Source: Sphingosinicella sp. LHD-64
GTDB taxonomy: Bacteria; Pseudomonadota; Alphaproteobacteria; Sphingomonadales; Sphingomonadaceae
Length of the DNA: 64,000 nucleotides
Assembly: GCF_031157375.1 (NCBI RefSeq)
Contig: NZ_JAVIFV010000001.1
Coordinates: forward strand, 1,054,001-1,118,000
Reading direction: 5' to 3'
This document shows, in pieces, positions 28,988-51,912 of the stretch (position 1 is the first letter of the stretch; the number at the start of each line of letters is the position of its first letter). The notes below the pieces were generated by a model. That model ran no database searches, was not told where the DNA came from, and saw only the letters and a program-made list of their open reading frames with translations. The position numbers and the translations under genes were made by a program.

Positions 28988-29055
28988 TCGTCATTCCAGC
29001 GAAGGCTGGAATCCATACTGAATCCGCATGGACCCCGGCCTTCGCCGGGGTGACG
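28988..29055. repeat. REP-like palindromic element 2
   Basis: CGTCATTCCAGCGAAGGCTG at the left and CCCCGGCCTTCGCCGGGGTG followed by ACG at the right, each arm self-complementary, between convergent tyrS and the YdcZ-like gene. It may double as a bidirectional terminator. Confidence 0.75.
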
Positions 29056-31729: not shown

Positions 31730-31814
31730 CGTCATTCCAGCGAAAGCTGGAATCCCGCTTTTCTTGCCCGACGGCCATGAAGGCAGGAAGATTCCAGCTT
31801 TCGCTGGAATGACG
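31730..31814. repeat. REP-like palindromic element 4
   Basis: A long inverted repeat: CGTCATTCCAGCGAAAGCTG (with GAAT) at the left and ATTCCAGCTTTCGCTGGAAT followed by GACG at the right, 25 bp arms that are perfect complements, flanking about 37 bp. It lies in the divergent promoter region of recG and sdhE. The same arms recur at 42831-42930. Confidence 0.85.
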
Positions 31815-39227: not shown

Positions 39228-40529
39228 ATGGACCGGACCAACCTCTACCGCGCCGTCTGGCATTGGCATTTCTATGCAGGCCTCATCGTCTTGCCGGTGC
39301 TCGCCTGGATGGCGGTCACCGGCAGCCTCTATCTCTACAAGAGCGAGATCGAGCGCTGGCTCTACCGGGACTGGATTGTCGCCCGGTCGATCGCCCCGCC
39401 GCTGCCGCTCGGCGACATGATCCAGCGGGTCGAAAGCCAGACCGGCGGGGAGGTCACGCAGGTGATACGCCCCGCCGGAACCGACGAGAGCTGGCGCATG
39501 GCCTTCACCGCCGCGGACGGCGAGGAGCGGCTCGCCTTCGTTCGCCCCGATGTCGGCCTCGTCCTCGGCACCACGCGCGGCGGCGGCCCGATGGAGCTGG
39601 TCAAGCATCTCCACAGCCTCACCGTCGCCGGGCCGGTCGGCAACGTCCTCGTCGAGATCGTCGCCGGCTGGGCGATCGTGCTGGTGCTGACCGGCTTCTA
39701 TCTCTGGTGGCCCCGTGCCGGAAGCCGCGCCCTGTCGCTCGCCGGCGGGGTCGGGGAGCGGCGCTTCTGGCGCAATCTCCATGCCTCGGCCGGCGCGCTC
39801 GCCGGCGCGGTCATCCTGTTCCTGGCGGTGACCGGGATGCCCTGGACGATCTTCTGGGGCGCCAATTTCCATGCCGTCATCGCCAGTCAGCAAATCGGCC
39901 GGCCGAAAGCACCGGGTCTCGCCGGCGACGATCATGGCGCGCATGATGCGCGTGACGCGCATCTCCCCTGGTCACTGCGCGGACAGGCGCAGCCAGAAAC
40001 GTCCGGCCATGGCGACATCGGCCCGGACCGCGTCGTGACGATCGCCATGGACCGCGGGCTGGACACGCCGTGGAATCTCGATCTGCCGACCACGCCGGAC
40101 AAGCCCTACCACCTGTCCTCGGCGGTGGAGCGCACCGATCGGGTGCGCCTCGTCTCGATCGATCCCGGCACCGGCGCGGTGCTGCAGGACCTCCGGTTCG
40201 CCGATTTCGGTCCGGGCGCGCAGGCGTTCGAATGGGGCATCTACACCCATCAGGGCGGCCAATATGGCGAGGCGAACCGGCTCGTCATGCTCGCCGGCTG
40301 CCTCGCCCTGCTGCTGCTCGCGGCGAGCGCGCCGGTGATGTGGTGGAAGCGCCGCTTCCGCGCCCCGCCCCAGCCGGACGATCCCGGCCGCGCCCGCGGC
40401 GTTGCGGCGATCCTGCTGACGGTCGGACTGCTCTTCCCGCTGACCGGCGCGACGATGCTGGTCGCGCTCGCCGCTGGCGCTGCGAAGCGGGCACTCAGCC
40501 GAGGAACAGCTCGGCTGCAGCCTCGATGA
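39228..40529 (+). CDS. PepSY-associated membrane protein (PiuB-like)
   Basis: The 433-residue protein has about five membrane helices with WHFYAGLIVLPVLAWMAVTG near the start, a PepSY-like periplasmic region (about 55-125), LHASAGALAGAVILFLAVTG in the middle, and a His-rich loop (DDHGAHDARDAH). Such PepSY_TM proteins accompany TonB receptors for iron or copper and may reduce or release the metal. Its 3' end overlaps the convergent transketolase-like gene by 35 bp. Confidence 0.88.
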   Translation: MDRTNLYRAVWHWHFYAGLIVLPVLAWMAVTGSLYLYKSEIERWLYRDWIVARSIAPPLPLGDMIQRVESQTGGEVTQVIRPAGTDESWRMAFTAADGEERLAFVRPDVGLVLGTTRGGGPMELVKHLHSLTVAGPVGNVLVEIVAGWAIVLVLTGFYLWWPRAGSRALSLAGGVGERRFWRNLHASAGALAGAVILFLAVTGMPWTIFWGANFHAVIASQQIGRPKAPGLAGDDHGAHDARDAHLPWSLRGQAQPETSGHGDIGPDRVVTIAMDRGLDTPWNLDLPTTPDKPYHLSSAVERTDRVRLVSIDPGTGAVLQDLRFADFGPGAQAFEWGIYTHQGGQYGEANRLVMLAGCLALLLLAASAPVMWWKRRFRAPPQPDDPGRARGVAAILLTVGLLFPLTGATMLVALAAGAAKRALSRGTARLQPR

Positions 40530-42816
40530 TCGCGTCGGTGTCGAGCCGGTAGGCGCGGTAGAGATCGGCGAGATTGCCGGTCTGGCCGAACCGCTCGACG
40601 CCGAGCGGACTCACCTTGTGTCCGGCCACGCCGCCGAGCCAGGAGAGCGCGGCCGGCGATCCGTCGATCAGGGTGACGAGGCCGGCGTCGCGCGACAATG
40701 GTGCGAGCAGGGTTTCGACATGGCTGGGCTCCGCTCCGCCGCCGCGCCAACGTCCGGCGCAGCGCTGGCTCCAGCCACGGTGCAGCAGATCGGGCGAGGT
40801 GACGGCGAGCAGGCCGAGGCCCGGCAGGTCATCCTGCAGCGCCTCCCAGGCGGCCAGCGCCTCGGGGGCCAGCGCGCCGGAATAGACCAGGGCCGCCTCC
40901 GCGCCCGGCGCCGGCTCACGCAGCCAGTAGCCGCCAGCGATCGCGCCGGCCTGCCAGCCGTCGCCCTCGCGCGCGACCTGCGGAATGCTGCGGGTGGTGA
41001 GGCGCAGGTACACGCTCTCGCCGCCCTCGACCTGCATCAGGCGGAAGCCTTCTTCCATCAGCAGCGCCAGCTCGTCGACATAAGCGGGCTCATAGTGCCG
41101 GAGGCCCGGCTGGCCCATCGCGATCAGCGGCGGATTGATCGACTGGTGGGCGCCGCCTTCCGGCCCGAGCGTCAGGCCCGACGGAGTCGCGACCAGCAGG
41201 AAGCGGGCGTCCTGGTAGCAAGCATAGTTGAGCGCATCGAGGCCGCGGGCGATGAACGGGTCGTAGACCGTGCCGATCGGGAACAGCCGCCCGCCGAACA
41301 GGTCGCCGGCCAGCCCAAGCGCGGCGAGCATCAGGAACAGGTTGTTCTCGGCAATGCCCAGCTCGATATGCTGGCCGGCCTGGTGGCCCGCCCATTTCTG
41401 CGGGCTCGGAATCTTCGCGGCTGCGAAGATGTCGGCGAGCTCCTGCCGCCTGAACAGGCCGCGCTGGTTCACCCACGGGCCGAGATTGGTCGACACGGTG
41501 ACATCGGGCGAGGTGGTCACGATCCGGTCGGCCAGCGCGCCGCCGCCACGCGACAGATCGAGCAGGATCTTGCCGAACGCCGCCTGGGTCGATTGCTCGG
41601 CGCCCTCCGGCGGGACGATCGCCGGCACCTCGGCCACGTTCCAGGGCCGCCCGCGTTTCTCGCGGACGATGCGGCTGCGCTCGACCAGCGTCCGCGCCGC
41701 CTCGGCGCTGTTGCCCCCGAGCCCTGCGAACGGCGCCCATTCCTCGCCCTCGGAGATGCCCATCGCGTCGCGCAGCGCCATGATCTGGCCCGGGTTCATC
41801 AGCCCGGCATGATTGTCCTTGTGTCCCGCGAAGGGCAGGCCGAAGCCCTTGATCGTGTAGGCGATGAACAGGGTCGGCACGTCGTCCTGCGCCGCGTCGA
41901 ACGCGTCCGTCAGCGTCTCCAAGCAGTGGCCGCCGAGATTGGTCATCAGGCTGGCGAGCGCATCGTCGTCGCGGGCATCGAGGATCGGCTTCACCGCCTT
42001 GCCGAGGTCCTTCGTCAGCCGCTCGCGCCAGGCCGCGCCGCCGAGATAGGTGAGCGCCGCATAGTCGGCATTGGGGCAGGCCGCGATCCAGTCGCGCAGC
42101 TTTTCGCCGCCTTTTTCGGCGAAGGCCGAATCCTGCGCCTTGCCATATTTTAGCGTCACCACCCGCCAGCCGCAGCTCGCGAAAATCTCGTCGAAGCGGC
42201 TGAACATCCGGTCCGCCGTCGTCGCGTCGAGGCTCTGGCGGTTATAGTCGACGATCCACCAGCAATTGCGGATGTCGTGCTTCGCCGCCTCGATCAGGCA
42301 TTCGTAGATATTGCCCTCGTCGAGCTCGGCATCGCCCATCAGCGCGACCATCCGGCCCATGTCGGCCGACGCCATCATGCCGTGCGCGACCAGATAGTCC
42401 TGCACGAGGCTGGCAAAGGCCGTGATCGCGACGCCGAGGCCCACCGACCCGGTCGAGAAGTCGACGGGGATCTGGTCCTTGGTCCGGCTCGGATAGGATT
42501 GCATCCCGCCGAAGCCGCGAAACGCCTCGAGCTGCGCGCGCGTCTGCGAGCCAAGCAGATAGTGAGCCGCGTGCAGCACCGGCCCGGCATGGGGCTTTAC
42601 CGCCACCTTGTCGTTCGGCCCCAGCGCATGGAAATAGAGCGCCGCCATGATCGCGGTCATCGACGCGCAGGACGCCTGGTGCCCGCCGACCTTCAGCCCG
42701 TCCGCGCTGTCGCGCAGATGGTTGGCATTGTGGATCGTCCACGCCGACAGCCAACGCAGCCGGTCGTCGATCAGTTTCAGGGCGTCGAGATCAGGCCCCT
42801 GGGTCTTCTTCAGCAT
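40495..42816 (-). CDS. Transketolase / homodimeric 2-oxoacid dehydrogenase E1-like (AceE/MdeB type)
   Basis: The 773-residue thiamin-diphosphate enzyme has the TPP-binding motif GDAELDEGNIYECLIEAA with NCWWIVDYNRQSLD, HDIRN before it, and AceE-like GFGLPFAGHKDNHAGLMN. The pyrimidine domain includes HIELGIAENNLFLML. This resembles the homodimeric E1 of pyruvate dehydrogenase and MdeB-like 2-oxobutyrate dehydrogenases more than classical transketolase. No lipoyl or E2/E3 gene is adjacent. The start at 42816 is chosen; longer frames read through a palindromic repeat. Confidence 0.82.
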   Translation of the reverse strand: MLKKTQGPDLDALKLIDDRLRWLSAWTIHNANHLRDSADGLKVGGHQASCASMTAIMAALYFHALGPNDKVAVKPHAGPVLHAAHYLLGSQTRAQLEAFRGFGGMQSYPSRTKDQIPVDFSTGSVGLGVAITAFASLVQDYLVAHGMMASADMGRMVALMGDAELDEGNIYECLIEAAKHDIRNCWWIVDYNRQSLDATTADRMFSRFDEIFASCGWRVVTLKYGKAQDSAFAEKGGEKLRDWIAACPNADYAALTYLGGAAWRERLTKDLGKAVKPILDARDDDALASLMTNLGGHCLETLTDAFDAAQDDVPTLFIAYTIKGFGLPFAGHKDNHAGLMNPGQIMALRDAMGISEGEEWAPFAGLGGNSAEAARTLVERSRIVREKRGRPWNVAEVPAIVPPEGAEQSTQAAFGKILLDLSRGGGALADRIVTTSPDVTVSTNLGPWVNQRGLFRRQELADIFAAAKIPSPQKWAGHQAGQHIELGIAENNLFLMLAALGLAGDLFGGRLFPIGTVYDPFIARGLDALNYACYQDARFLLVATPSGLTLGPEGGAHQSINPPLIAMGQPGLRHYEPAYVDELALLMEEGFRLMQVEGGESVYLRLTTRSIPQVAREGDGWQAGAIAGGYWLREPAPGAEAALVYSGALAPEALAAWEALQDDLPGLGLLAVTSPDLLHRGWSQRCAGRWRGGGAEPSHVETLLAPLSRDAGLVTLIDGSPAALSWLGGVAGHKVSPLGVERFGQTGNLADLYRAYRLDTDAIIEAAAELFLG

Positions 42817-42830
42817 GTCCCGCGCTCTAC

Positions 42831-42930
42831 CGTCATTCCAGCGAAAGCTGGAATCTCTTTTTCTCTTTCCGATCGACCGCCAGGCGGCGAGGCCGAAAGG
42901 AGGGAGATTCCAGCTTTCGCTGGAATGACG
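42831..42930. repeat. REP-like palindromic element 5
   Basis: Left arm CGTCATTCCAGCGAAAGCTG and right arm with CCAGCTTTCGCTGGAATGAC-G are perfect complements of about 24 bp around a 50-bp centre. The arms are the same as in the element at 31730-31814. It separates the transketolase-like gene from phoD on the minus strand. Confidence 0.85.
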
Positions 42931-42932
42931 AG

Positions 42933-44549
42933 CTAGGCCAGCCGGTTCGTTCCCCGCGTCACGCTCATCGCGTGCCGCCCGGCGATCGTCGTCGAGCGGT
43001 CGCGGATCGTGTCCAGGAACAGGAACTCGCCGGTCGCGCGCTCCGGCGTCAGCTCCACGGTCAGATAGCCGCGCCGGCTGAAATCGGCCCATTTGAGCTG
43101 CGGGTTGGCACCGATGGTGACGCGGACGAGATCGGCCGGCGGCACCCAGGTCATGTAGCTTTCATAGCCCGGCGAGGTGACGCTCTGGCCGGCGAATTCG
43201 ACACCCGCAGGTGTGCCGTCGAGATCGAGATCGAACGCCCAGGCATTGTGGCTGTCGCCGGAGAGCACGACGAGATTGGCATTGGCGTCGAGTGCAGAGC
43301 GCAGCAGCCGGGCCCGGGCGGCCGGATAGCCGTCCCACATATCGAAGTTGAACGGCAGGCCGGCGCGCGACGCGGCGATGCCGGCGCCGACGGTGCGGCG
43401 GGTCTGCTCGCTCGCCTCGGGCGTCAGCATGCCGCCGATTTCCGGCGCGAGCCGCACCGAGCCCATGATCACCTGCTGGGCCAGCACCTGCCATTTCTTG
43501 CCGGCACGGGTCGAGCGGGCGAAGCCCTCGCCGAGCCAGCGCTCCTGCGCGGCCCCGAGAATGGTGCGCGCGGGATCCTGCCAGGGGCCGTCGCGGAAGG
43601 CGACCAGCGCCGCGCCGAGATCCTGCTGCCCGGCCAAAGCGGCGCTGAGGTCGAGCTGTTCACTGCGCCCGGTCGCCCGCGTCTCGGGCCGGAAGATCGT
43701 CGCCAGATCGCCGATCTCGTAGCTCTCCCAGGCATTGTCGGTGATGGGCATCCACTCGCGATAGACGCGCTCGGCGGTCGCCTTGCGCACCGCCCAGTCG
43801 CCCTCGTTCGGCTGATGGTTCTCCGCGCCGTTCTGCCAGGCGTTGTTGGTGAGCTCATGGTCGTCCCACATCATCACCATCGGGAACATCTGGTGCAGCC
43901 GCTGCAGGTCCGGGTCGGCGCGATAGGCGGCATAGCGCAGGCGATAGTCGGCGAGCTGAACGATCTCGCCCGCCGGCTCGATCACGCGCCCGGCCAATGC
44001 CTGCTCCGCACTGGGATAGGTGCTGCGGCCATATTCGTAGAGATAGTCGCCGAGATGGACCATGAGGTCGATATCGTCGCGCGCCGCGGCGTGGGCATAG
44101 GCATTGAACCAGCCGAACGGCAGGTTCGAGCAGGAGAAGACCCCGAGCTTGAACCGCTCGGTCGATCCCTCCGGCAGCGTCCGCGTGCGCCCGACCGGCG
44201 AGAAGCGCCCGCTCGAATCGACGAAGCGGTAGAAATAGCGCCGGCCCGGCGCGAGGCCGCCCGCCACCGGCTTCACGCAAAAATCATGCTCGGCCTCGGC
44301 GGTGACGCTGCCGCCCGCGGCGACGCGCGCGAAATCCTCGGTTTCCGAAACCTGCCAGTCCAGCCGCCCCGCGCCGCCCGCCGGCACATAGCGCGTCCAC
44401 AGCATCACACCGTCCGCACGCGGTTCGCCGCTCGCAACATTGTGGGTGAAGCCCCGCGCGGCCATCATCTGCGCGGCGCCAGGCATGGCAAGCGCGCCGA
44501 GCCCGAACGTGCCGAGGCGGAGGAGCGAGCGGCGGTCGATCGTCAGCAT
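42933..44549 (-). CDS. PhoD-family alkaline phosphatase/phosphodiesterase
   Basis: The 538-residue enzyme carries a twin-arginine-type signal (TIDRRSLLRLGTFGLGALAM), an N-terminal beta domain (THNVASGEPRADGVMLWTRY), and a metallophosphatase domain with MVHLGDYLYEYG, MMWDDHELTNNAW and VLSGDSHNAWAFDLD, matching PhoD metal sites (Fe3+/Ca2+). It probably hydrolyses phosphate esters in the periplasm. Its ATG is only 2 bp after the stop of the upstream TonB receptor, which suggests coupled expression and a joint role in organophosphate uptake. Confidence 0.92.
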   Translation of the reverse strand: MLTIDRRSLLRLGTFGLGALAMPGAAQMMAARGFTHNVASGEPRADGVMLWTRYVPAGGAGRLDWQVSETEDFARVAAGGSVTAEAEHDFCVKPVAGGLAPGRRYFYRFVDSSGRFSPVGRTRTLPEGSTERFKLGVFSCSNLPFGWFNAYAHAAARDDIDLMVHLGDYLYEYGRSTYPSAEQALAGRVIEPAGEIVQLADYRLRYAAYRADPDLQRLHQMFPMVMMWDDHELTNNAWQNGAENHQPNEGDWAVRKATAERVYREWMPITDNAWESYEIGDLATIFRPETRATGRSEQLDLSAALAGQQDLGAALVAFRDGPWQDPARTILGAAQERWLGEGFARSTRAGKKWQVLAQQVIMGSVRLAPEIGGMLTPEASEQTRRTVGAGIAASRAGLPFNFDMWDGYPAARARLLRSALDANANLVVLSGDSHNAWAFDLDLDGTPAGVEFAGQSVTSPGYESYMTWVPPADLVRVTIGANPQLKWADFSRRGYLTVELTPERATGEFLFLDTIRDRSTTIAGRHAMSVTRGTNRLA

Positions 44550-47585: not shown

Positions 47586-47612
47586 CTGTCGGTGCGCCTA
47601 GCGCGCCGACAG
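47586..47612. terminator. Hairpin at the convergent end of bkdB
   Basis: CTGTCGGTGCGC and GCGCGCCGACAG form a stem of about 12 bp with one mismatch and a 3-nt loop. It overlaps the last codons of bkdB (stop at 47598-47600), so it would fold in either transcript. Terminator role is inferred from position. Confidence 0.4.
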
Positions 47613-48911
47613 CAGCTTCAGCGGATTCTCGATCAGGCCCCTCAGGTCTCGCATGAATTCGGCCGCGTCCCAGCCGTCCACCACCCGGTGGTCGCAGGAG
47701 AGCGAGAGGTTCATCATCTTGCGGACCTCGAGCTCGTCGTCGATCACCACCGGCGTCTCGCGCACCTTGTTGACCGCGACGATGCCGACCTCCGGCCGGT
47801 TGATCACCGGCGTCGAGGTGATACCGCCCATCGGGCCGAGACTGGAGATGGTGAAGGTCGAGCCCGACAATTCCTCGCGGCTCGCCTTCCCGGTCCGCGC
47901 CGCCTCGGCCAGCCGGGCAACCTCGGCGGCGAGGTTCCACAGATCGCGGTTCTGCGCGTCGCGGATGACCGCGACCATCAGCCCGTTCGGGGTCTGCGTC
48001 GCCATGCCCATATGGACCGCGCCGTGGCGGGTGATGACCTGCGCATCGTCATCATAGGTCGCGTTGATCTGCGGATATTGCGCAAGCATCCGCGAGAAGG
48101 CGGTGATCAGGAAGGGCAGCATGGTGAGCTTGGGATTGCCGCCGCGATCCTGGTTCATCATCGCGCGGGTCTGCTCCAGCGCGGTGACGTCATATTCCTC
48201 GACCAGGGTGAAATGCGGGATGCGGCGCTTGGCCTCCTGCATGTTCTCCGCGATCTTGCGCCTGAGGCCGACGACCTTGACCGTCTCGTCCGCCCGCCGC
48301 GTGCGCGGCCCACCGGAAACGCCGCCGCTATTGTAGAGCAGATAGGCATCGAGATCGGCATGGCGGATGCGGTCGCCCGCATATTTCACCTGCGCCAGAT
48401 CGATGCCGAGATCGCGCGCGCGCTGGCGCACCGCCGGCGAGGCCTGAACCTGCCCGGACTTGTGCTCCCGCGAAGGCGGGAGCCCAGCTTCTTCCTTTTG
48501 CTCGCTGGACTCCTGGGCTCCTGCCTTCGCAGGAGCACGGGTTTCATCCAGGGACGGAATCTCTTCCTCCTGCGCGGGCGTCGGATCGATCAGCCCGTCG
48601 GACAGCGCGACCGTGTCCGCGCGCGACGCTTCCTCGGCAGGTGCTGGCGCCTCTTCTGCCGGCGCGTCGCCCTCGACCTCGAACTCGACCAGCACCGATC
48701 CGATCGGGATCTGATCGCCGACCTCGCCCGCGACTCTCACGACCTTGCCGGCCACCGGAGATTCCATCTCCACCGTCGCCTTGTCGGTCATCATGTCGGC
48801 GATCTGCTGGTCTTCCGCGACCATGTCGCCGACCTTGACGTGCCAGGCGACGATCTCGGCCTCGGCGATGCCTTCGCCGATGTCGGGCAGCTTGAATTGG
48901 TAGCGCGCCAT
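47598..48911 (-). CDS. bkdB: Branched-chain 2-oxoacid dehydrogenase E2 (dihydrolipoyl acyltransferase)
   Basis: E2 forms the core of the complex and moves the acyl group to CoA. The 437-residue protein has one lipoyl domain (residues 1-80) with lipoyl Lys44 (MMTDKATVEMESPVAG), an Ala/Glu-rich linker, an E3/E1-binding domain (about 155-190; ASPAVRQRARDLGIDL) and the catalytic domain ending LSCDHRVVDGWDAAEF (catalytic His). Linker residues 125-151 are encoded by a palindromic repeat lying in frame (48459-48541). It is 7 bp after bkdA2. Confidence 0.95.
   Translation of the reverse strand: MARYQFKLPDIGEGIAEAEIVAWHVKVGDMVAEDQQIADMMTDKATVEMESPVAGKVVRVAGEVGDQIPIGSVLVEFEVEGDAPAEEAPAPAEEASRADTVALSDGLIDPTPAQEEEIPSLDETRAPAKAGAQESSEQKEEAGLPPSREHKSGQVQASPAVRQRARDLGIDLAQVKYAGDRIRHADLDAYLLYNSGGVSGGPRTRRADETVKVVGLRRKIAENMQEAKRRIPHFTLVEEYDVTALEQTRAMMNQDRGGNPKLTMLPFLITAFSRMLAQYPQINATYDDDAQVITRHGAVHMGMATQTPNGLMVAVIRDAQNRDLWNLAAEVARLAEAARTGKASREELSGSTFTISSLGPMGGITSTPVINRPEVGIVAVNKVRETPVVIDDELEVRKMMNLSLSCDHRVVDGWDAAEFMRDLRGLIENPLKLLSAR
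48459..48541. repeat. REP-like palindromic element 6, inside the bkdB coding sequence
   Basis: Left arm TGTGCTCCCGCGAAGGCGGG (with AGCCCAG) and right arm CTGGGCTCCTGCCTTCGCAG (with GAGCACG) are inverted copies with two to three mismatches, each arm itself palindromic. On the minus strand it is read in frame as ARAPAKAGAQ ... LPPSREHK-like residues of the E2 linker. No stop codon arises. Confidence 0.85.
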
Positions 48912-48918
48912 GGCGTCC

Positions 48919-49932
48919 TCAGTCCTCCAAAGCCTTTTTGAACGCGGTGCCGAGCCGGATCGGGCCGGGGAAATAGGCCCATTCCAGGCTGTGCGGATAG
49001 GGCGTGTCCCAGCCTGTCGCGCGCTGCACCGGCGCTTCCAGATGATAGAAGCAGCGCTCCTGGACGAGCGCCGCCAGCTCCGCGCCGAAGCCGGCCGTCC
49101 GCGTCGCCTCGTGGACGATGGCGCAGCGCCCGGTCTTCTTCACCGATTCCTCGATCGTCTCGATGTCGACGGGAACGATGGTCCTGAGGTCGATCACCTC
49201 GGCATCGATCCCCGCGGCCTCCACCGCGGCGAGCACCACATGGACCATCGTGCCGTAGGCGACGACGGTCAGCGCCTCGCCCTCGCGCACCACCTGCGCC
49301 TTGCCGATCGGCACCGTATAGTGCCCATCCGGCACTTCCGAGGCCACATGTTTTGCCCACGGGGTGACCGGTCGGTCGAAGAAACCGTCGAACGGCCCGT
49401 TGTAGATGCGCTTGGGTTCGAAGAAGACGACCGGATCGTTGCTCTCGATCGCAGAGATCAGCAGCCCCTTGGCGTCATAGGGATTGGACGGAATGACGGT
49501 GGTGATGCCGGCGATGTGCGCGAACAAGGCCTCGGGGCTCTGGCTGTGCGTCTGCCCGCCGAAGATGCCGCCGCCGTAGGGCGAACGGATGGTGAGCGGC
49601 ACGCACCATTCGCCCGCGGTGCGATAGCGGATGCGCGCGGCTTCCGACACGATCTGGTCGAAGCCCGGATAGATGTAATCGGCGAACTGGATCTCGGCGA
49701 CGGGCCTCAGCCCATAGGTCGCCATGCCGATCGCGACGCCCATGATGCCGCCTTCGGAGATTGGCGTATCGAACACGCGGCTGCGCCCGTACTTGCGCTG
49801 CAGCCCCTCGGTCGCGCGGAAGACGCCGCCGAAATAGCCGACGTCCTCCCCCAGCGCGACGACGTTGTCGTCGGCTTCCATCATCACATGATGGGCGCTG
49901 TTGATCGCCTGGATCATGTTCATGACGGTCAT
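48919..49932 (-). CDS. bkdA2: Branched-chain 2-oxoacid dehydrogenase E1 beta subunit
   Basis: The 337-residue protein pairs with E1 alpha to decarboxylate branched-chain 2-oxoacids. Typical motifs are VVALGEDVGYFGGVFRATEG, RVFDTPISEGGIMGVAIGMA, RSPYGGGIFGGQTHSQSPEA and VEVIDLRTIVPVDIETIEES-type sequence in the C-terminal domain. The start overlaps the bkdA1 stop by 4 bp. Length is as expected. Confidence 0.95.
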   Translation of the reverse strand: MTVMNMIQAINSAHHVMMEADDNVVALGEDVGYFGGVFRATEGLQRKYGRSRVFDTPISEGGIMGVAIGMATYGLRPVAEIQFADYIYPGFDQIVSEAARIRYRTAGEWCVPLTIRSPYGGGIFGGQTHSQSPEALFAHIAGITTVIPSNPYDAKGLLISAIESNDPVVFFEPKRIYNGPFDGFFDRPVTPWAKHVASEVPDGHYTVPIGKAQVVREGEALTVVAYGTMVHVVLAAVEAAGIDAEVIDLRTIVPVDIETIEESVKKTGRCAIVHEATRTAGFGAELAALVQERCFYHLEAPVQRATGWDTPYPHSLEWAYFPGPIRLGTAFKKALED

Positions 49933-51269
49933 TTCTTCTTCGCCTCCAGCTCGGCGATCATCTGGGCCTGCTGCTCCTTCAAATGCCAGGGCATCTCTTC
50001 GAACACGTCCTCGAACATGGTCGAAACGTCCTGCGGGAAATCGATCGTCGAGGCGACCAGGGTGCCGAGCTTCTCGGCTTCCTTCTGCGCCGCGCGGACC
50101 TCGGTATCGACCTCCTTGGCCAGCTCCTCGTGCCGCCCGTCATCCCATTCGCCGAGCGATACGAGATGCGCCTTCAGCCGCTCGATCGGATCGCCCAAAG
50201 GCCATTTCTTGCCCGCGCCCTGCGGCCGGTAGGCGCTGGGATCGTCAGAGGTGGAATGGCCCTCGACCCGATAGGTGAACATCTCGATCAAAGTCGGCCC
50301 GAGGTTGGAGCGCGCCCGGTCCGCCGCCCATTGGGTCGCGGCATAGACGGCCAGCGGATCGTTGCCGTCGACCCTGAGGCCCGCAATGCCATAGCCCACC
50401 GCGCGCGCCGCGAAGGTGGTGAGCTCGCCGCCGGCGATGCCGGAGAAGGACGAGATCGCCCACTGGTTGTTGACCACGTTGAGGATCACCGGCGCGCGGT
50501 AGATGCCGGCGAACAATACTGCGCTGTGGAAGTCGCCCTCGGCCGTCGAACCGTCGCCGATCCAGGCGGCGGCGATCCGGCTGTCGCCCTTGACCGCGCT
50601 CCCCATCGCCCAGCCCACCGCCTGCGGATATTGGGTGGCGAGATTGCCGGAGATGGAGAAGAAGCCCTTCTTCTTGTCCGAATACATGACCGGGAGCTGC
50701 CGCCCCTTCAGCCGGTCGCCGCGGTTCGAGTAGATCTGGTTCATCATCTCGACCATCGGATAGCCGCGCGCGACGAGCAGCCCCTGCTGGCGATAGGTCG
50801 GGAAGCACATGTCCTCGCCGTCGAGCGCATAGGCCGCGGCCACCGCCACCGCCTCCTCGCCCAGCGACTTCATGTAGAAGCTGGTCTTGCCCTGGCGCTG
50901 GGCTCGGAACATCCGCTCGTCGAACGCCCGGACGGTCATCATGTCCTTCAGCATCCGCTTCAGCGTCTCGGCGTCGAGCCGCGGGTCCCATGGTCCGACC
51001 GCCTGGCCGTCCTCGTCCAGGACGCGCACCAGGGTGAAGCACAAGGGGTGGGTGTCGGCGGCGGCCGCGGAAATATCGGGCCGCGCGACGCTGCCGGCGG
51101 CGGGGATCACCAGCTTGCTGAAATCGGGCTCGTCGCCGGGCCGCCCGTCGGGCTCCGGGACATGAAGCGAGAGGCGGGTTCGGTTCGCCCCGCGAACCGA
51201 AGCCTGGTCCGGCGGACCAGGCGGCCCGCCTCTCGCCGGACGGTTGCGGCGGTCGGTCTTGCTGGCCAT
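49929..51269 (-). CDS. bkdA1: Branched-chain 2-oxoacid dehydrogenase E1 alpha subunit
   Basis: The 446-residue protein has the TPP-binding motif AWIGDGSTAEGDFHSAVLF with VNNQWAISSF, and the phosphorylation-loop region EMFTYRVEGHSTSDDPSAY. LSLHVPEPDGRPGDEPDFS and RQGKTSFYMKSLGEEA distinguish BkdA1 from pyruvate dehydrogenase E1. The first about 30 residues (MASKTDRRNRPARGG...) are basic and poorly conserved. An E3 (lpd) gene is not found after bkdB, so the complex must use E3 from elsewhere. Confidence 0.95.
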   Translation of the reverse strand: MASKTDRRNRPARGGPPGPPDQASVRGANRTRLSLHVPEPDGRPGDEPDFSKLVIPAAGSVARPDISAAAADTHPLCFTLVRVLDEDGQAVGPWDPRLDAETLKRMLKDMMTVRAFDERMFRAQRQGKTSFYMKSLGEEAVAVAAAYALDGEDMCFPTYRQQGLLVARGYPMVEMMNQIYSNRGDRLKGRQLPVMYSDKKKGFFSISGNLATQYPQAVGWAMGSAVKGDSRIAAAWIGDGSTAEGDFHSAVLFAGIYRAPVILNVVNNQWAISSFSGIAGGELTTFAARAVGYGIAGLRVDGNDPLAVYAATQWAADRARSNLGPTLIEMFTYRVEGHSTSDDPSAYRPQGAGKKWPLGDPIERLKAHLVSLGEWDDGRHEELAKEVDTEVRAAQKEAEKLGTLVASTIDFPQDVSTMFEDVFEEMPWHLKEQQAQMIAELEAKKK

Positions 51270-51423
51270 CCTCACCTGCGTTCCTGTGGGCGGGAAGGCG
51301 CTCGCCCCCGCCGAGACTCTTCGAAGCGCGGCCTCTAGTCGATTTTTTCGACCGATGCACCCCTTGCGAATTGAGCTACAAGCGTCATCGATCCGCCACG
51401 TCGTGCCGAAGGAAAATCGGTTG

Positions 51424-51912
51424 ATGCTCGCAAGGTTCCTCGCCGCCCTCTTCCTTGCGCTCATCCCGGCCGCGGCGCCGGCCGAAACCTCCACCCAGCC
51501 GCTGATCTATGTCATGCGCCATCTCAACACGCCGGCCGGCGAGCGCGATCCGGACCTGCTGCCGGAAGGCCGGGAGACTGCCGAGGCGCTCGCCGCCTGG
51601 TTTCCGGCCGATGCCCAACCCACCGTGATCTACGTCAGCGATTTCAAGCGCACCCGGCAGACGGCTGCGCCGCTCGCCGCGCGGCTCGGTCTCACGCCGG
51701 TCGTCTACGACCCCGCCGACACGCCGGCTTTGGTCGCCCGCGTCCAGGCGGAGCGCGGGCCGGTGCTGATCGTCGGCCACAGCAACACGGTGCCGGACAT
51801 CGTCGCCGCGCTCGGCGGCACCCGGCCGGCGGCGCTGGTCCATGAGGATTTCGGCGAGATCTGGCGGGTGACGCCCGACGGCGCCACCGCCCGCGCCCGG
51901 ATCGCCCAATAA
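51424..51912 (+). CDS. Exported histidine phosphatase family protein (SixA/PGM-like)
   Basis: The 162-residue protein has a signal peptide (about 1-20) and a histidine-phosphatase fold with Arg32-His33 in YVMRHLNTPAGE, SDFKRTRQTAAPLA and His119 in VLIVGHSNTVPDIV. The usual RHG is RHL here, so the Gly is replaced, but the catalytic Arg and both His are kept. It is probably a periplasmic phosphatase of unknown substrate. It is divergent from the bkd operon. Confidence 0.82.
   Translation: MLARFLAALFLALIPAAAPAETSTQPLIYVMRHLNTPAGERDPDLLPEGRETAEALAAWFPADAQPTVIYVSDFKRTRQTAAPLAARLGLTPVVYDPADTPALVARVQAERGPVLIVGHSNTVPDIVAALGGTRPAALVHEDFGEIWRVTPDGATARARIAQ

Follow-up and report, generated by a model that had tools for sequence, protein, structure and literature searches.

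An in-frame palindromic repeat in the bkdB linker of Sphingosinicella, at a site occupied by different palindrome families across Sphingomonadales

Results

A palindromic repeat within the linker of bkdB

The bkdB gene of Sphingosinicella sp. LHD-64, which encodes the dihydrolipoyl acyltransferase (E2) of a branched-chain 2-oxoacid dehydrogenase, carries a palindromic repeat within its reading frame. The gene lies in a 64,000-nt stretch of contig NZ_JAVIFV010000001.1 (positions 1,054,001 to 1,118,000), hereafter the window, and its parts have the following window positions (arms are named by the coding strand; REP, repetitive extragenic palindrome; pLDDT, predicted local distance difference test):

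47598..48911, minus strand: bkdB, E2 gene, 437 aa, intact (translation and Pfam)
48450..48683, minus strand: flexible linker from the lipoyl to the E3-binding domain, residues 77-154 (Pfam boundaries and pLDDT)
48459..48541, minus strand: in-frame palindromic element of class A, a CGTC-1-like REP dimer, 83 bp, residues 124-151 (sequence, arm match and fold)
48513..48538, minus strand: 5' arm, GTGCTCCTGCGAAGGCAGGAGCCCAG, coding for (R)APAKAGAQ
48488..48512, minus strand: 25-nt spacer between the arms, coding for ESSEQKEE(A)
48462..48487, minus strand: 3' arm, coding for (A)GLPPSREH

The initial annotation had described a REP-like inverted repeat in frame at this place, and the observation is confirmed: the two 26-nt arms are complementary at 24 of 26 positions (92%). 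The element spans nt 371-453 of bkdB, is open in all six frames and reads TRAPAKAGAQESSEQKEEAGLPPSREHK. The annotation gave about 27 residues, ARAPAKAGAQ to LPPSREHK; these are indeed linker residues (124-151), but the first one is T, not A. On the coding strand the RNA is predicted to fold at -58.1 kcal/mol (z -7.7), a value equalled by none of 200 shuffles. Rfam returned six matches (five microRNA families and one Xanthomonas small RNA), all under the gathering score, and a known structured RNA was thus rejected.

Pfam places the lipoyl domain of BkdB at residues 5-76, the E3-binding domain at 155-186 and the catalytic domain at 207-434. Between the first two, residues 82-152 have a pLDDT below 50 (AlphaFold2, 34-row alignment), so that the linker is predicted to be a disordered, low-confidence region, in keeping with the annotation's placement of the repeat in a flexible linker.

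The arms are multi-copy and the element resembles CGTC-1 REPs

The bkdB arms recur elsewhere in the host genome (G000, 3.89 Mb in 8 contigs; G numbers denote genus genomes, L numbers individual loci). Exact twins of the last 23 nt of the 5' arm and of 23 nt of the 3' arm lie at G000:C6:107482 and G000:C2:80130, respectively. Allowing up to 3 mismatches, the 23-nt arm pattern CTCCNGCGAAGGCNGGAGCCCAG was found at 31 places in G000 (17 forward and 14 reverse), versus 2 places (0 + 2) for a reversed-pattern control. Shorter patterns gave 16 versus 6 (20 nt) and 16 versus 0 (18 nt); for this class A pattern of 18 nt, the control was not exceeded in several genomes of the genus (e.g., G001, 2 versus 4; G008, 1 versus 2). 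Within the window, a form closer to the bkdB copy, GCTCCCGCGAAGGCGGGAGC with up to 3 mismatches, is confined to bkdB (2 matches, versus 0.12 on average in 100 shuffles). Three further dimers of the same class are present, with no strand assigned:

28989..29055: CGTC-tagged REP dimer, directly after the tyrosyl-tRNA synthetase open reading frame (ORF)
31730..31814: CGTC-tagged REP dimer; neither of the overlapping ORFs has a Pfam match
42831..42930: CGTC-tagged REP dimer, directly after the end of the PhoD ORF at 42933

All three apparently lie between genes, and the annotation was right, for the class, to speak of a repeat type found between genes elsewhere. The ORF of a transketolase / pyruvate dehydrogenase E1-like gene at 40495-43092 (minus strand) opens upstream of a REP dimer, and the true start of this gene is probably downstream of the dimer.

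CGTC-1 REPs of Alphaproteobacteria occur as inverted pairs with spacers of mostly 20-100 bp, mainly between genes and sometimes within them, and no dedicated transposase is known for them (PMC3733652; here and below, as described in the portions of that paper available to us). The bkdB copy is alike in its 8-bp stem and 4-nt loop (GCTCCTGC GAAG GCAGGAGC), its CCA tail (both units end in CCCAG) and its layout as an inverted pair with a spacer. In the bkdB dimer the tag sides face outward and the CCA tails inward, which may correspond to the head-to-head (HH) order of CGTC-1 dimers. The unpaired CGTC-1 tag (CGTC, or TGTC/CCTC) is missing: the 5' arm opens with CCGTGCTCC, and the other window copies open with CGTCATTCC or CGTCACCCC. 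The two A-T pairs that open the CGTC-1 stem with hardly any exception (positions 1 and 2) are likewise missing, the stem starting instead with G-C and C-G. Unlike the bkdB copy, which has CCGT before the stem, the window's other dimers carry the tag in 6/6 units and both A-T pairs in 5/6. We therefore call the bkdB copy CGTC-1-like, since stem, loop, CCA tail and pairing are kept while the tag and the A-T stem start are gone. As in CGTC-1, copies are many, often paired and mostly intergenic: of the 31 sites read, many are two-armed and 4 were judged to have coding sequence on both sides. A RAYT transposase was ruled out as the mover in this genome, where its domain (Y1_Tnp, PF01797) has no match; 11 of the 26 genus genomes have one.

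Upstream of bkdB lie two genes of the same complex:

48919..49932, minus strand: E1 beta gene (Pfam Transket_pyr and Transketolase_C)
49929..51494, minus strand: E1 alpha gene (Pfam E1_dh and OxoDH_E1alpha_N, 2-oxoisovalerate dehydrogenase E1 alpha N terminal)

The order is thus E1 alpha, E1 beta, bkdB, with 7 bp between the end of the E1 beta gene and the start of bkdB, and the name bkdB was chosen because the E1 alpha gene is its neighbour.

Different palindromes occupy the same bkdB site across the order

An ortholog of bkdB was found in all 26 genus genomes, and 79 of 80 loci from named genomes of the order were readable (L079 was not); the resulting 105 loci, less 11 duplicates, gave 94 distinct linkers. 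The named set, 80 of 111 relatives, was drawn with six peptide patterns that include EHKSGQVQ, which itself reaches into the insert, and could be biased; the genus set was chosen without these patterns. Inverted-repeat scores (+1/-2) of at least 15 were reached by 29 of the 94 linkers and of at least 13 by 35 (8 and 9 of 26 in the genus). The corresponding figures were 3 and 19 of 2,820 codon-shuffled linkers, and 0 and 1 of 278 windows downstream of the linker, the third 270-nt window of which can extend beyond the stop codon; none of the 94 lipoyl domains reached 13.

These numbers bear on the simplest alternative, namely that codon use in a linker rich in Ala and Pro produced the palindrome by chance. 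The linkers are in fact GC-rich and of low complexity, and the mean best scores of the shuffles are about 7 to 10. However, the Sphingosinicella linker itself scores 20 while its 40 shuffles reach 11 at most, shuffles reaching 13 are as rare as stated, and both arms have their exact 23-nt twins elsewhere in the genome. Shuffles, coding-window controls and copy number together rule chance out, and we assign it a practically negligible probability.

The linker arms sort into six families. Family A, with the core GCGAAGGC, comprises the Sphingosinicella element, L082 of Hephaestia caeni, L092, L105 and L128; family B, TGAGCCTGTCGAAG, comprises L010, L023, L086, L089, L100, L103, L132 and others; family C, CGAGCGAAGTCGAG, L011, L012, L014, L019, L129 and others; family D, CCCCTCCCGC..GCGGGAGGGG, L015, L063, L087, L094 and L098; family E, of the CTCTCCCCTT type, L106, L112 and, by eye, L116; and family F, CCTCCCCGGCACGGGGAGG, L095, L107, L108 and L120. 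The class motif matches 50 of the 94 linkers, single weak matches (e.g., L113-L115, L118, L121) not being taken as elements. Conversely, L077, L090 and L116, which carry none of the class motifs, and L081, which has only an A motif, were filed as D, F, E and D, respectively.

Five of the six families (A, B, C, D and F) were searched genome-wide, and all five are multi-copy in their hosts. Class A arms occur elsewhere at 5-152 places in 5 hosts; class B arms reach 149 (G025) and class C arms 112 (G004), both counted within the genus; class D is found at 4-35 places per strand in 7 hosts; and class F at 10-54 per strand in 5 of 6 hosts, with none in the host of L090. Reversed-pattern controls gave 0-3 per genome and strand. 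Class C copies are few in certain hosts whose class C linkers have decayed (G001, 4; G008, 2; G020, 1).

The annotation had proposed checking whether the segment is absent from close relatives, and here the picture is only partly clear-cut, the nearest species having a different element at this place. None of the other 93 distinct linkers has the segment as ordinary, conserved protein, the finding that the annotation had named as one that would overturn its reading, and this alternative is rejected. The closest look-alike, in H. caeni (62% identity), is that species' own copy of the class, of which its genome holds 112 arms.

Among the 35 linkers scoring at least 13, the end of the right arm precedes the ASPAVR motif, where the E3-binding domain begins, by 7-37 nt in 30; the distance is 1, 44, 67, 82 and 131 nt in the remaining 5. 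A 94-row tree of bkdB minus its linker calls for no fewer than 37 class changes among the elements, a count that does not tell gain from loss and rests on a tree with 24 of 90 inner branches starred, on 45 labelled linkers (some decayed and named by eye) and on two identical rows (L126/L127). Neighbours on this tree differ in class: the Sphingosinicella A stands next to B in G018, A (L082) next to D (L098) within Hephaestia, and C in L072 next to D in L081.

Many palindrome-free genus linkers (L016, L017, L024, L028, L031 and L032) hold Arg-rich repeats of the Arg-Asp/Glu kind, with DRR or ERR every few residues, another repetitive filler.

Other proteins share the pattern

The annotation had suggested looking for other genic copies, and these exist. 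We took a census of 31 class A sites in G000, 17 class C sites in G003 and 21 class B sites in G001 (the last from 20 stretches picked among the listed places), calling genes around them by a codon score devised for this analysis (coding on both sides, score >20) and naming them by Pfam domains. Coding sequence flanks both sides of 4 sites in G000 (bkdB, ABC-F, glycyl-tRNA synthetase beta and truB), 3 in G003 (a third E2, RNase R and bkdB) and 2 in G001 (ileS and uvrA); a site in an alpha-amylase-type protein of G001 is borderline (left score 18). The copies in the G003 third E2, ileS and uvrA are single-arm matches at the stringency used. In G003, 2 of the 17 elements fall within two E2 linkers totalling 414 nt, where 0.002 would be expected, assuming a uniform genome and with both linkers picked after their elements had been seen. 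The ABC-F copy, RAPAKAGAQ...GLPLSRE, is read in the frame used in bkdB, and 2 of 23 ABC-F linkers score at least 13. In truB (L233:665-742), the class A element lies near the TruB_N / TruB_C_2 junction.

Glycyl-tRNA synthetase beta provides the cleanest evidence of insertion. Its site 1 (LVEEGIV / LADLAERAARL) was readable in 19 of the 25 genomes with a match and holds an element in 13 of these 19 species, scoring at least 13 in 12 and at least 15 in 10 (L308, score 10, was recognised by eye); the assigned classes are A, C, E and F. The six empty sites measure 56-64 aa, versus 78-122 aa for the 13 occupied ones. At site 3 of the same protein, 7 of 25 genomes score at least 13 and 5 at least 15; in L288, L290, L293-L295 and L305-L307 this place holds IPQTGEEDPLVLV, a conserved segment, while the remaining species either carry a palindrome there or have no insert.

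Among E2 proteins, 9 of 20 linkers of a third family reach a score of 15, versus 0 of 17 for pyruvate dehydrogenase E2 and 0 of 21 for 2-oxoglutarate dehydrogenase E2 (2 of 60 stretches, one motif-free and one containing N, were set aside, and L144, probably another E2, was counted with pyruvate dehydrogenase). One weak class A motif match each was found in the 2-oxoglutarate dehydrogenase linker L146 and the pyruvate dehydrogenase linker L156. Since neither family has a strong repeat, a flexible linker alone is insufficient. The third E2 of Sphingosinicella (L137) has a pair resembling class E (score 16). In G025 (L178), a class A-type peptide, RHSGESRNL..DPGFRRGDE, directly precedes the likely start of the third E2.

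Fewest-change counts on a 26-species tree were 9 for bkdB, 10 for site 1, 11 for site 3 (its native segment counted as a state), 4 for ABC-F and 9 for the third E2, with labels partly by eye and the tree resting on bkdB alone for the 11 genomes that have no ABC-F part. Across these five sites, Sphingosinicella and its sister G018 are both occupied throughout, yet the assigned class differs at four. Similarly, G002 and G025 share C in bkdB and E at site 1 but differ in the third E2, which is E-like by eye (score 10) in one and B (score 18) in the other. Such pairs would fit element-for-element exchange, in which later palindromes replace earlier ones by recombination or nested insertion and the families are successive tenants. 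The clean empty sites of glycyl-tRNA synthetase site 1, however, indicate that insertion into empty sites also can occur, and parsimony is blind to gain versus replacement, with several class labels given by eye. We consider this exchange doubtful.

Reading frame and the hairpin

A single phase prevails in three arms, even with all six frames of the bkdB element open. For the class A left arm this phase (the PAKAG type) is used in 9 of 9 scan cases from four proteins, these including L016, which elsewhere was not taken as an element; for the class B forward arm the figure is 15 of 16, and for the class C reverse arm, 15 of 18. These counts are not all independent, since some copies share descent. 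The common frames yield peptides rich in Pro, Ala, Glu, Ser and Thr.

An alternative is that the hairpin itself is selected, for instance because such a structure in the mRNA delays translation from one domain to the next or governs the stability of the transcript. The bkdB element does fold strongly and, in three pairs of relatives with a shared element, only 2 of 49 arm codons changed synonymously versus 282 of 1,188 in the rest of the gene (Fisher p 4e-4; single-pair p 0.03, 0.13 and 0.14, the three pairs and the arm residues being hand-picked from five pairs examined). On the other hand, the 49 linkers assigned no element have no excess RNA structure (median z 0.02), strong repeats are missing from the 17 pyruvate dehydrogenase and 21 2-oxoglutarate dehydrogenase linkers, gene conversion among copies would explain arm conservation equally well, and in L029/L030, a pair outside the three counted, the shared element has decayed. 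The hairpin is thus unsupported as a conserved need of bkdB, and we regard its selection as improbable. The low arm divergence may stem from constraint at the DNA level, from re-insertion or from gene conversion with copies elsewhere.

Discussion

We consider it very likely that a paired REP, consisting of two inverted CGTC-1-like units, entered bkdB in frame and now forms about 28 linker residues, and that permissive sites of this kind are refilled. REP families resident in the genome would insert mainly between genes, and coding inserts would survive when their length is divisible by three, no stop is introduced and the added disordered residues are well tolerated at the landing place. The kept frame would tend toward a soluble peptide rich in Pro, Ala, Ser and Glu, and permissive sites (the bkdB linker, the third-E2 linker, two sites of glycyl-tRNA synthetase beta and the ABC-F linker) would be occupied repeatedly. 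Among the explanations considered, insertion plus tolerance is the best supported.

Several observations weigh against this view. The Sphingosinicella lineage offers no empty bkdB site: the nearest relative, G018 (86% identity), has another element, and the next nearest, G017, has no element yet a longer linker. Having an element does not go with greater linker length in the genus (median 93 aa, n=12, with an element; 106 aa, n=14, without); in the remainder of the order it does (91 versus 77 aa, n=33 and 35). The truB class A copy, which lay outside the scan, is read in another phase (HSSESWN), and several phases are used by the class B reverse arm (7, 7, 1) and the class C forward arm (8, 4, 2). 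The few synonymous changes in the arms are unpredicted by simple neutral drift of the protein sequence. Moreover, neither transposition nor target duplication was seen in this comparison, and translation of the element is predicted from its intact frame.

Both S. alaskensis and E. lithoralis are sphingomonads. Intragenic CGTC REPs are described in their tRNA synthetase and truB genes (PMC3733652, whose spelling of the second name we keep), and the same paper reports different REPs at about the same recB site in two Xanthomonas and proposes flexible linkers. Its main text (the gene list being separate) gives no match for 'dihydrolip' or 'acetyltransferase'. The parallel drawn by the annotation with Rickettsia palindromic elements (RPEs) proved close, as RPE-6 of R. 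conorii is equated there with CGTC-1 repeats. RPE-4, RPE-6 and RPE-1 likewise lie in frame within housekeeping genes (PMC3733652 and the part of PMC10969869 available), and truB is hit both in R. conorii (by RPE-1) and in Sphingosinicella. A further trait of RPEs is in-frame insertion into a gene that keeps working; BkdB has an intact frame and intact domains and may keep its function. RPEs measure about 150 bp, whereas the elements here are shorter, their hosts free-living and one site is filled by several families. The enterobacterial intragenic units RU-1 to RU-3 are similarly small mobile repeats read in frame, but are 103-168 bp long and resemble miniature inverted-repeat transposable elements, while the bkdB element is a REP pair (PMC2759123, the part available).

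In-frame insertion of REPs and RPEs is thus already described (PMC3733652 and the Rickettsia work, in the portions cited). Beyond the initial annotation, we find that the bkdB site is targeted time and again across the order, and that the pattern extends to other proteins encoded by the genome. The repeated occupation of fixed protein sites by palindrome families unrelated to one another appears to be new: across an order it is not described in the available portions of PMC3733652, and no publication on palindromes in E2 or glycyl-tRNA synthetase linkers was recognised from titles and the beginnings of abstracts, few queries having named these proteins.

Rickettsia is the best-known source of in-frame palindromes, with occasional cases in other organisms. 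In the present set a single linker is readable in almost a hundred genomes and holds several families that are unrelated; other sites provide the empty states, and two other E2 proteins serve as internal negative controls. It can now be tested whether repeats enter proteins only where they are harmless or shape linkers, and by which route tenants change. At preferred places, new protein sequence seems to arise from repetitive DNA again and again. More tentatively, and less likely than not in our view, fixed protein sites may be standing landing pads whose families are exchanged on species time scales, the frame being filtered by disorder and the arms kept DNA-like by gene conversion. If so, a few housekeeping proteins would evolve their linkers by swapping selfish DNA.
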